Source: Planctomycetota bacterium (GTDB lineage: Bacteria > Planctomycetota > UBA1135 > UBA2386). From it: 64,000 bases of DNA. Below the pieces are notes generated by a model. It saw only the letters and a program-made list of their open reading frames with translations, was not told the DNA's origin and made no database searches. Below, piece after piece: positions 7,135 to 10,218 of the stretch. The stretch's first letter is position 1. Every line of letters begins with the position of its first letter. The stretch spans positions 62,001 to 126,000 of the forward strand of contig JADLFX010000060.1 of assembly GCA_020849665.1 (NCBI GenBank), given 5' to 3'. The position numbers were made by a program, and so were the translations under genes.

Positions 7135-8517
7135 GTGAACGCGTCGCGGGAGCCAGGCCAGTACACGAAGGTTCCGGCGGACCCGGCCTTCTTCCCCGGC
7201 GTTCTCGCCGAGGCGATGCAATGGCTGGCGTTCCTGCCCGGGCTCGCCTGCCTGCTCTTCGTGAGCGTGGTCCTCGGCATCCACGGCTCGGCCACGTTCG
7301 AGGTGCATCTCTTCGACGGCGACCGCATCGCGCCGAGCGGGATCGGCCACGAACTCGGCACGGTGCCCGCGCTGCTGGCCGCGGCCGGCTTCCTGATGGC
7401 CCACGGCCGGGCGCGCGAGCGACGCCATCGTGCCGCCGCGCTCTGGTTCGCCGCCGCGCTGCAGGTGCTCGTGCTCCTGACCGCCATCCCACGCGGCGTG
7501 GACTCCACGTGGTGGATGCTGCAGCCGCTGCTCACGGTCCTGGTCGCGGTGATGCTCGGGGTCCGCCCGGGGCTCTGCACCGCGCTCGTGGGTGCCACGG
7601 CGGTCCTGGCGGCCGCGGCGCTGCAAGGCGCGGGGCACCTGGCGACCGGTGAGCTCGGCGGGCGCTGGTCGGTGGCGGCGACCGAGGCGGCGGTGATCCT
7701 GGGCAGCGGCGTGGTCGGCGGGCTGGTGCACGCGAGCCTGCAGCGCGCCCTGCATGCGGAGCTGGACCAACGGATGCGTCTGGCCGAGACCCTGGAGATC
7801 CTGGCGGAACGCGAGCGGCTCCTGGCCCACGCCATGCGCGTGACCACGCTCGGCGAGATGGCGGGGATGGTGGTGCACCAGCTCCGCAACCAGTTCCAGT
7901 TGATGATGGGGGTGGCGGCGCTGGGTCAGCGCGAGGCACCCGCGGCCAAGGACCACCGGTTCCGGCAGGTGCTCGACTCGCTGGCGCGGTGCAACGAGTA
8001 CGTGCAGCACCTGCTCGACCTCGCCCACCCCGACGAAGGGTCGATCCGCAAGTTCGACATGGTGGAATTCGTGGACGGGTTCGCCCGGGGTGTGCGGCCG
8101 GTGCTGCCCTCGGCGATCACGCTCTCCGCGGAGCTGCCCCAGGAACCGCTCGCCGTGCTGGTGAATCCACGTGGCCTCGAGCCGGCGCTGCTGAACCTCG
8201 TGCTCAACGCGCGGCGTGCGATGCGCGGGCGTGGGACGCTGCGGGTGCGGGTGGCGCGCGTGGGGGCCGCCGAGGTCGCGGTGGAGGTCGCCGACAGCGG
8301 CGAGGGGATTCCCGCCGCGAACCTCGCACGCATCTTCGAGCCCTTCTTCACGACCCGCCCGCCGGGCGAGGGGACGGGGCTCGGGCTGGCCGCGGTGCGG
8401 CGCTTCGTGCACGCCCAGGGTGGCAGGGTCGAGGTCGAGAGCGAGATCGGCAAGGGGAGCACGTTCCGCCTGGTCTTCCCCCTGGCCAGCGAGCGCGCCG
8501 GACGCGCTACAGGCTGA
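7135..8517 (+). CDS. Membrane sensor histidine kinase
   Basis: A 460-residue two-component sensor kinase. The N-terminal 200 residues hold about six hydrophobic helices with no large periplasmic domain, so it may sense a membrane or intramembrane signal. A coiled linker (205-230) leads to the H-box LGEMAGMVVHQLRNQ with phospho-acceptor H248. The N-box LNLVLNARRAM, G1 DSGEGIP, F-box FEPFFTTR and G2 GTGLGLA are all intact. The start is GTG at 7135, just downstream of a -10-like TAGACT. No response regulator is adjacent; the NtrC-like regulator 0.8 kb upstream is the nearest candidate partner. The 3' end overlaps the convergent frataxin-like gene by 11 bp. Confidence 0.9.
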   Translation: MNASREPGQYTKVPADPAFFPGVLAEAMQWLAFLPGLACLLFVSVVLGIHGSATFEVHLFDGDRIAPSGIGHELGTVPALLAAAGFLMAHGRARERRHRAAALWFAAALQVLVLLTAIPRGVDSTWWMLQPLLTVLVAVMLGVRPGLCTALVGATAVLAAAALQGAGHLATGELGGRWSVAATEAAVILGSGVVGGLVHASLQRALHAELDQRMRLAETLEILAERERLLAHAMRVTTLGEMAGMVVHQLRNQFQLMMGVAALGQREAPAAKDHRFRQVLDSLARCNEYVQHLLDLAHPDEGSIRKFDMVEFVDGFARGVRPVLPSAITLSAELPQEPLAVLVNPRGLEPALLNLVLNARRAMRGRGTLRVRVARVGAAEVAVEVADSGEGIPAANLARIFEPFFTTRPPGEGTGLGLAAVRRFVHAQGGRVEVESEIGKGSTFRLVFPLASERAGRATG

Positions 8518-8830
8518 TCGGGCGCTGCAGCTTCTGCGACAGGACCTCGGCCAGGATCCGGCGCAGGGGGCCGCGACCCTTGGTGTCGGTCCATTCCCCG
8601 GTGGCCTCGTCGCGCTGGAAGTGCCAGGCCTGGACGCCGGCGGCCAGCCAGATCTGATGCGCCGCGGTCTGGCGGTTCATGATGCAGCGGGTCCGATCGG
8701 CGAAGAGCATCGAGAGCACACCGATCGCCAGATCGCACTCCAGCTCGTCCGGATCGAAGTCGGAGAGCCTGGCCAGGATGGCCTCCATCTCCTGGTCCGC
8801 GGCCTTGGTGAACTCGATGTCGGTCTTCAT
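8507..8830 (-). CDS. cyaY: Frataxin/CyaY-like iron-binding protein
   Basis: A 107-residue protein matching the frataxin fold, which regulates or donates iron for iron-sulfur cluster assembly. The N-terminal helix is acidic (E6, D12, E14, E16, then DFDPDELECD). It is followed by the sheet strands GVLSMLFADRTRCIMNRQ and the hallmark HQIWLAAGVQAWHF, then W(T)D and a C-terminal helix. These correspond to the NRQ...HQ(V/I)WLA...YHF pattern of CyaY. The start ATG at 8830 is the Met before the acidic helix. A structured RNA and terminator lie about 180 nt upstream on the same strand. Frataxins are best known from Proteobacteria and eukaryotes, so its presence here is unusual. Confidence 0.75.
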   Translation of the reverse strand: MKTDIEFTKAADQEMEAILARLSDFDPDELECDLAIGVLSMLFADRTRCIMNRQTAAHQIWLAAGVQAWHFQRDEATGEWTDTKGRGPLRRILAEVLSQKLQRPISL

Positions 8831-9010
8831 CGCGCAGGGTGCCGGGAAGGGAAGTCCGGAGCGTAACGGTCCGGGCGGCACTCGACCTATGCCGTGGTCG
8901 ATCCGCCCGTGCGGCCGGGCCGGTCGGACCGCTCGCTGCTCGCCGCGACCCGCACCCATGGCGGTAGTGGTCCAGCGTGCGCCGAACCGCGCGTGTCCGG
9001 GCGAGCGCCG

Positions 9011-9053
9011 AAAAAAACAGCGGCCAGGGGTCTTGCGACCCCCGGCCACCGCT
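9011..9053 (-). terminator. Strong intrinsic terminator ending the structured RNA
   Basis: On the minus strand 9051-9037 pairs with 9032-9018 in a 15-bp stem closed by a GCAA (GNRA) tetraloop, followed by seven U residues (9017-9011). Three of the pairs are G-U wobbles that would be A-C mismatches on the plus strand, so the element works in the minus direction. Confidence 0.9.
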
Positions 9054-9159
9054 CGGTCCCGGCTTGCCCTCTCTCAAAGCAATCCAACCGGTCATCCCTG
9101 CTGCGACCGACTGGTGCCGGGACCGCTCGTCCCATGCACTGAAGTAGACGAACGACCCG
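9011..9159 (-). ncRNA. Candidate structured RNA with a compact three-way junction
   Basis: On the minus strand several nested helices can form. P0 is 9154-9147 with 9131-9124 (8 bp). P1 is 9125-9116 with 9063-9054 (10 bp, perfect). Inside P1 are P2, 9114-9104 with 9094-9084 (11 bp, 9-nt loop), and P3, 9082-9076 with 9070-9064 (7 bp, GAGAG loop). The junction linkers are only 1, 1 and 0 nt. A terminator follows directly. P2, P3 and the terminator contain eight G-U pairs that would be mismatches on the other strand, which gives the direction. P0 and P1 share 2 nt. It fits no riboswitch, 6S, SRP or tmRNA consensus that I know. It lies between the moxR terminator and cyaY, so it is either a small RNA or a cyaY leader. 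The 5' end is not defined. Confidence 0.65.
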
Positions 9160-9189
9160 AAAAAACTTTCCTCTTCGGCGAGGAAAGCT
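9160..9189 (-). terminator. Intrinsic terminator of the cysteine synthase-moxR unit
   Basis: On the minus strand CTTTCCTC (9187-9180), loop GCCGAA and GAGGAAAG (9173-9166) form a perfect 8-bp hairpin followed by six T residues (9165-9160). It lies 25 nt after the moxR stop codon and immediately upstream of the structured RNA. Confidence 0.85.
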
Positions 9190-9213: not shown

Positions 9214-10218
9214 TCACCGGGCGGCGCGTTCCGCCCGTTGGCGCCACCGTTTGAGGAGCTCTTCCACGCCGATGCCCTCGCTCTCGGCCTCGAAGCCGAG
9301 GACCACGCGGTGGCGGAGCGCCGGAAGCAACACCTCCTCCAGATCTTCCCGACCGACCGAGGGTCGGCCATCCAGGAGCGCGCGGACCTTGGCGCCCAGG
9401 ACGATGGCCTGGCCGGCGCGCGGGCTCGCGCCGTAGCGGACGAAGCGCCGGGTCTCCGGATCGGCGTCGGGGAGATCGGGGTGCGTGGCCAGCACGAGGT
9501 CGGCGACGAACGCCAGCAGGTGTTCGCCGCAGAGCACCTGACGGACCAGATGCTGGAACTCGACCAGCTCGGCGCCGCTCATCACCGCACGCAACGCCGG
9601 ATCGGCGACCTGCGTGGTTGCACCCAGGATCCGCACCAGCTCGGACGCGCTGGGGCTGGGCACGAGCAGCTTGAAGAAGAAGCGATCCAGCTGTGCCTCG
9701 GGGAGCGGGAAGGTCCCTTCCAGCTCGATCGGATTCTGCGTGGCGACCACGAGGAAGGGCTGCGGCAGCGCATGCGTGGTCCCGGCCAGGGTCACCGACG
9801 CCTCCTGCATCGCCTCGAGCAGCGCGGACTGGGTCTTCGGCGTGGCCCGGTTGATCTCGTCTGCGAGGACGAGATTCGCGAACACCGGCCCGGCCTGGAA
9901 GCGGAAGCTCCTCGCCCCGCCGTGCTCCTCCAGCACCTGCGTCCCGGTCACGTCCGACGGCATCAGGTCGGGCGTGAACTGGATGCGCGCGAAGTGGAGG
10001 CCCAGGCAGCGGGCCAGCGCCTTGACCAGCATGGTCTTGCCGAGGCCGGGCATGCCTTCCAGCAGCACATGGCCGCCGGCCAGCGCGGCGGTGAGCAGGT
10101 CGAGGAGCAATCGCTCCTGGCCGATCAGGACCTTGCCCACCTCCTGACGCAGGACGCCGATGCGCTGGCGCAGCTCGGCCACGCGTTGCTGCACGGCCTG
10201 GGCCCGGTCGACGCTCAC
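9214..10218 (-). CDS. MoxR-family AAA+ ATPase
   Basis: A 334-residue MoxR ATPase, a chaperone-like class that usually works with VWA- or DUF58-domain partners in metal-centre maturation or envelope assembly. Walker A is G55-MPGLGK-T62. Walker B is LADEINRATPKTQSALLEAM, sensor 1 VVATQNPIELEGTFPLPEAQLDRF, and the lid domain is C-terminal. The length is normal. The GTG start at 10218 overlaps the TGA of the cysteine synthase-like gene (GTGA), implying translational coupling. No VWA or DUF58 gene is adjacent, which is unusual for MoxR. An intrinsic terminator follows. Confidence 0.9.
   Translation of the reverse strand: MSVDRAQAVQQRVAELRQRIGVLRQEVGKVLIGQERLLLDLLTAALAGGHVLLEGMPGLGKTMLVKALARCLGLHFARIQFTPDLMPSDVTGTQVLEEHGGARSFRFQAGPVFANLVLADEINRATPKTQSALLEAMQEASVTLAGTTHALPQPFLVVATQNPIELEGTFPLPEAQLDRFFFKLLVPSPSASELVRILGATTQVADPALRAVMSGAELVEFQHLVRQVLCGEHLLAFVADLVLATHPDLPDADPETRRFVRYGASPRAGQAIVLGAKVRALLDGRPSVGREDLEEVLLPALRHRVVLGFEAESEGIGVEELLKRWRQRAERAAR

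Follow-up and report, generated by a model that had tools for sequence, protein, structure and literature searches.

A conserved structured RNA gene with a putative ECF-type promoter between moxR and a frataxin-like gene in a family of Planctomycetota

The locus and its predicted fold

The window, by which we mean the whole 64,000-nucleotide stretch of Planctomycetota DNA analysed here, carries on its minus strand a moxR-type ATPase gene, a predicted small RNA and a frataxin/CyaY-like gene, whose ATG, at 8821, lies about 190 nt past the terminator of the RNA. The features of the locus, in order along the minus strand, are as follows.

9214 to 10218, minus strand: moxR-type AAA ATPase gene, the upstream neighbour (Pfam AAA_3, E 6e-64)
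9164 to 9171, minus strand: putative -35 element GGAAAGTT, ECF-type, with GGAA in nearly all of 35 members
9144 to 9150, minus strand: putative -10 element CGTCTAC (core CGTC), with CGT...AC nearly invariant
9011 to 9137, minus strand: predicted small RNA, about 127 nt long, starting at the inferred +1 (G of GCAUGGG) and running through the U-tract
9126 to 9137, minus strand: 5' tail GCAUGGGACGAG, unpaired and conserved more strongly than any other part; a candidate seed or protein site
9116 to 9125, minus strand: 5' arm of P1, with double compensatory changes at 10 of the 13 family P1 pairs
9084 to 9114, minus strand: P2 hairpin, with double compensatory changes at 11 of 12 pairs and a size that differs among members
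9064 to 9082, minus strand: P3 hairpin with the conserved GAGAGGGC (9066-9073)
9054 to 9063, minus strand: 3' arm of P1, on the same basis as the 5' arm
9011 to 9053, minus strand: intrinsic terminator with a 17-bp stem, GCAA loop and U7
8507 to 8821, minus strand: frataxin/CyaY-like gene, the downstream neighbour (Pfam Frataxin_Cyay, E 4e-18)

An earlier note had described four helices and a terminator on the minus strand, and the minimum-energy fold of 9005-9170 reproduces them. This fold has an energy of -89 kcal/mol (z -5.8), which none of 200 dinucleotide shuffles equals, whereas the plus strand of the same interval folds more weakly (z -2.5). The note's proposal of a directional structured RNA is supported. 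It consists of P0 (8 bp), P1 (10 bp), P2 (11-12 bp with one bulge) and P3 (7 bp with a GAGAG loop), joined by linkers of 1, 1 and 0 nt. For the predicted transcript at 9010-9137, the z-score is -6.7, or -3.9 if the terminator is removed. The +1 position was deduced from the position of the -10 box, and the covariance model described below matches 9010-9137 of the minus strand with 78 bits.

Conservation and covariation among relatives

A BLAST search with the structured stretch gave matches in 20 of 61 related genomes, all of them from the window's own family (f1), and the part that aligned was the 5' end. Using a covariance model built from 19 members, we searched 34 family f1 genomes and found the RNA in 33 of them, at a single locus per genome. 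Its orientation is constant, moxR lies upstream wherever the contig reaches, and the order moxR, RNA, frataxin-like gene holds in every member with enough contig. The one exception, genome G006 (L149), has lost the RNA but kept moxR and frataxin, which there lie about 60 nt apart.

The consensus derived from 31 members contains 13 pairs in P1, 12 in P2 and 14 in the terminator. We found double-sided changes at 30 of these 39 pairs (10 of 13 in P1, 11 of 12 in P2 and 9 of 14 in the terminator). The alignment holds 191 double-change cells compared with 49 in shuffles, and none of 500 shuffles reached 191. Paired cells make up 95.3% of the total versus 76.9% in shuffles, and the 14 family-wide terminator pairs are 98.4% paired. 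Shifting the partners by 1-3 columns abolishes the covariation signal. Although the alignment had been fitted to the model, MAFFT without such fitting led to the same picture. We rank this evolutionary evidence, namely the compensatory changes in P1, P2 and the terminator, above the folding energy as support for the structure. The earlier note had suggested a covariance search across relatives, and in nearly all of them the pairings prove to be kept by compensating changes, so that the note's own refuting case, pairings broken without compensation, did not arise. Conservation, covariation and the terminator are thereby established, and the comparison of sequences indicates that the minus-strand structure is genuine and constitutes an RNA gene undescribed before, whose transcription we infer.

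The 5' tail GCAUGGGACGAG is invariant in 19 sequences (alignment A1) and near-invariant in 31. It is unpaired, and it is conserved independently of the changing P1 partner. The tails of L086 and L090 deviate from it. The second conserved motif, GAGAGGGC, is present in 28 of 31 members, but the P3 stem around it is not conserved: in the window and its closest branch a small hairpin is formed around GAGAGGGC, while most other members have a 3' bulge here that is largely unpaired. The three-way junction reported earlier therefore exists in the window, but it is a local form of what is otherwise a helix bearing a 3' bulge, P3 being confined to the window's close branch. What nearly all members share is the unpaired 5' GCAUGGGACGAG, and most share GAGAGGGC as well. 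We rejected a local 5' hairpin, GGGAC with GUCCC, as a switch against P1: the partner is lost in 9 of 31 members, and GGGAC mostly stays. In two genomes (G014, L089, 2418-2638; G022, L093, 2362-2556) the RNA is enlarged to about 195-220 nt by extra hairpins in the region of P2 and the bulge.

Outside family f1, a shorter form of the RNA occurs in family f6, where at least 4 of the 8 genomes carry a homologue next to the moxR orthologue. These homologues lie directly downstream of moxR in G049, G135, G052, G046 and perhaps G055, and consist of a tail (GCAAAGGACGAG or GCAAGGGAC), one hairpin and a terminator. The gene that follows in G135, G052 and G046 is convergently oriented, with its end a short distance past the terminator; the RNA is thus tied to the moxR side of the locus, not to frataxin. 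Matches of the covariance model in family f8 were discarded, since those inspected were not beside moxR or frataxin and were chance terminators.

Promoter and neighbouring genes

In all 31 family members, a GGAAAGTT-like and a CGTCTAC-like box are separated by exactly 13 variable bases. The boxes end 6-7 nt before the tail, the bipartite promoter being placed 13-15 nt before it. Members score 10-15 of 15 on this promoter, and the maximum among 2000 shuffles is 10. The exact bipartite motif occurs in 10 of 34 genomes, once per genome and at the RNA locus, and a reversed control gave 0 matches. In family f6, the homologues in G052 and G046 keep the spacing, but their boxes are weaker, scoring 8 and 11 of 15. 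This geometry is established. Published ECF sigma signatures place CGTC at positions -13 to -10 and have GGAACTT as the -35 sequence (PMC3397946); counted from these, +1 falls on the G of GCAUGGG (9137) or on the base preceding it. Judged by its sequence, the promoter is of ECF form. Against this, a search for a regulon sharing the promoter found the exact motif only at the RNA locus, and no excess when one mismatch was allowed; without copies elsewhere, the box could also be read by another sigma factor.

The position of the promoter changes how two of the elements described earlier are read. The pairing called P0 is present in the window, where CGTC of the -10 box pairs with GACG of the tail. 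However, it is not an RNA helix, because its upstream arm is the -10 box and hence promoter DNA; outside that box P0 is not maintained: its three outer pairs are retained by 18, 27 and 14, respectively, of the 35 members. Likewise, the hairpin at 9160-9184 with its T run, which had been taken for the moxR terminator and does resemble one, overlaps the conserved -35 box. By inspection of the alignment it is not conserved there, and it appears to be particular to the window genome.

A probable trans-acting small RNA, its rivals and known systems

The combination of exposed, conserved purine-rich segments with a terminator and a stress-type promoter points to a trans-acting small RNA. We give a probability of roughly 0.6 to the reading that this is a free-standing, probably ECF-controlled, trans-acting small RNA; its transcription, ECF control and base pairing we infer. 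It probably regulates other genes and is induced by stress. Of the two functions offered in the earlier note, a small RNA or a leader controlling cyaY, the former is now the most likely. In the mechanism we propose, an ECF-type (stress) RNA polymerase would start near 9137 on the minus strand, and transcription would stop at the RNA's own intrinsic terminator near 9011. The nearly invariant, purine-rich 5' tail GCAUGGGACGAG would stay unpaired and exposed, and the conserved P1/P2 arm would present GAGAGGGC as a second exposed motif, followed by the stable 3' terminator hairpin. The tail would then most likely pair with mRNAs at pyrimidine-rich sites of translation start and repress them in the manner of sigma-E-dependent small RNAs. 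More tentatively, as a possibility we would not favour at present, the RNA may be a noncoding arm of the Planctomycetota envelope-stress (ECF) response, separate in origin from its proteobacterial and fusobacterial counterparts, whose 5' tail covers leaderless or near-leaderless starts and silences secreted and envelope proteins.

The search for targets included one apparent success that a control removed. The perfect complement of the tail is CTCGTCCCATGC; 15 of its 30 matches in family f1 coincide with start codons, and the genes concerned mostly encode secreted proteins. However, in family f8, which is without the RNA, CTCGTCCCATGC matches occur at a similar density, and 10 of 30 that were sampled fall on start codons. 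We therefore dropped these matches as evidence of targets: the pattern characterises start sites throughout the order and does not demonstrate targets, though start sites of this type would be natural targets. Over about 0.86 Mb from genomes that carry the RNA, GTCCC was not enriched ahead of start codons. Nor was the bulge complement TTGCCCTCTCG enriched. As a separate observation, CTCGTCCC-ATG-C lies exactly at the start codons of secreted proteins and lipoproteins (L118-L148 in f1, L215-L244 in f8); it is found order-wide, before non-homologous genes and in genomes with and without the RNA, and is unexplained.

The main rival is a protein-binding decoy whose exposed GGA motifs titrate a CsrA/RsmA-like protein, as the RNAs RsmX/Y/Z do. 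It is the main rival because unpaired GGA is about twice as frequent as in shuffles: 35 members hold 48 such motifs where 22.9 are expected, in two recurrent places. The sites lie in the 5' tail (AUGGGACG), in the terminator loop (CUGGGAGA) and, in some members, in the apex loop. However, there are usually only two sites per RNA, the one in the terminator loop is absent from several members including the window, and GAGAGGGC is conserved although it is not a CsrA site. A tblastn search for CsrA and Hfq gave no match within the limited part of genome sequence searched. On balance, we consider a decoy unlikely.

Less likely again is that the RNA originates from a 3' UTR: it would be released from the moxR mRNA by processing and lack a promoter, and the terminator would serve moxR. 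Its place directly after moxR in every case, in two families, would fit such an origin, as would the fact that no other conserved moxR terminator was seen. Nevertheless, the two promoter boxes located between moxR and the RNA are conserved and keep an invariant spacing, which makes processing from moxR improbable.

The second function offered in the earlier note, a cis-acting leader or attenuator of cyaY with a regulated terminator, is largely refuted, and we regard it as very improbable. The RNA is on the same strand as cyaY, and in almost all family relatives its terminator lies 27-180 nt before that gene. Even so, the RNA ends in its own terminator, genome G006 retains moxR and cyaY without it, and the f6 homologues are followed by convergent genes. 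Moreover, cyaY has promoter-like boxes: a CATCAT box lies shortly before its ATG in 12 of 31 relatives (0.4% in shuffles), and 9 of these 12 have TTGNNN 16-17 nt upstream. The independence of the RNA from cyaY is thus established. The arrangement TTGNNN-N16/17-CATCAT shortly before the ATG, seen in the frataxin upstream regions (L033-L052 and L083-L094), also suggests that mRNAs in this lineage may be near-leaderless.

Finally, a leaderless mRNA encoding a small protein from the AUG at RNA nucleotide 3 has next to no probability: in spite of the near-invariant AUG GGA CGA by the predicted start and long open frames in some members, the alignment refutes it, as the frame shifts among members, the ORFs range from 8 to 232 codons, L086 has no AUG and the stems covary.

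A 2022 survey lists only 8 Rfam small RNA families in the whole Planctomycetes-Verrucomicrobia-Chlamydiae group (PMC9029176). Small RNAs are scarcely known beyond the model phyla, and the present RNA adds a well-delimited, single-copy case that is near-universal in one family and whose putative promoter, 5' end, fold and terminator are all legible from sequence. Through it one can ask directly whether the ECF stress responses of the phylum include a noncoding arm, and how a small RNA could act on leaderless mRNAs.

The earlier note knew no RNA family with this layout and had proposed an Rfam scan; Rfam 15 (4227 families) gives no match in the window at the gathering threshold or at E <= 1. In five relatives, searched at E up to 1, the only match is a 24-bit chance match to CRISPR-DR29 in L053. 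Like 6S RNA (RF00013), the present RNA is a single-copy structured RNA of similar size, but it fails the 6S covariance model and ends in an intrinsic terminator. We rejected an identity with 6S RNA, as there is no RF00013 match in the window and 6S-like candidates lie at other loci. Those candidates (L107-L114), just under the Rfam threshold, are found at another locus in 17 of 34 family f1 genomes. RsmX/Y/Z and CsrB/C resemble the present RNA in having stem-loops with unpaired GGA and a terminator, but they carry several GGA sites, whereas it has two, not all conserved, together with other conserved motifs.

The working analogues are the sigma-E-dependent small RNAs RybB and MicA of Enterobacteria and FoxI and FoxJ of Fusobacterium. 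These belong to a different phylum, and we claim no sequence relation or common family. The FoxI/FoxJ seed is a C stretch whereas the exposed motif here is purine-rich, and the promoter of the present RNA was found only at its own locus. Like the RNA predicted here, however, they are short stand-alone RNAs with an ECF-type promoter, an intrinsic terminator and an exposed conserved region. The position of FoxJ, a sigma-E small RNA of about 156 nt, led to its being first misannotated as a 5' UTR (PMC11005410), a case similar to that of the RNA described here.
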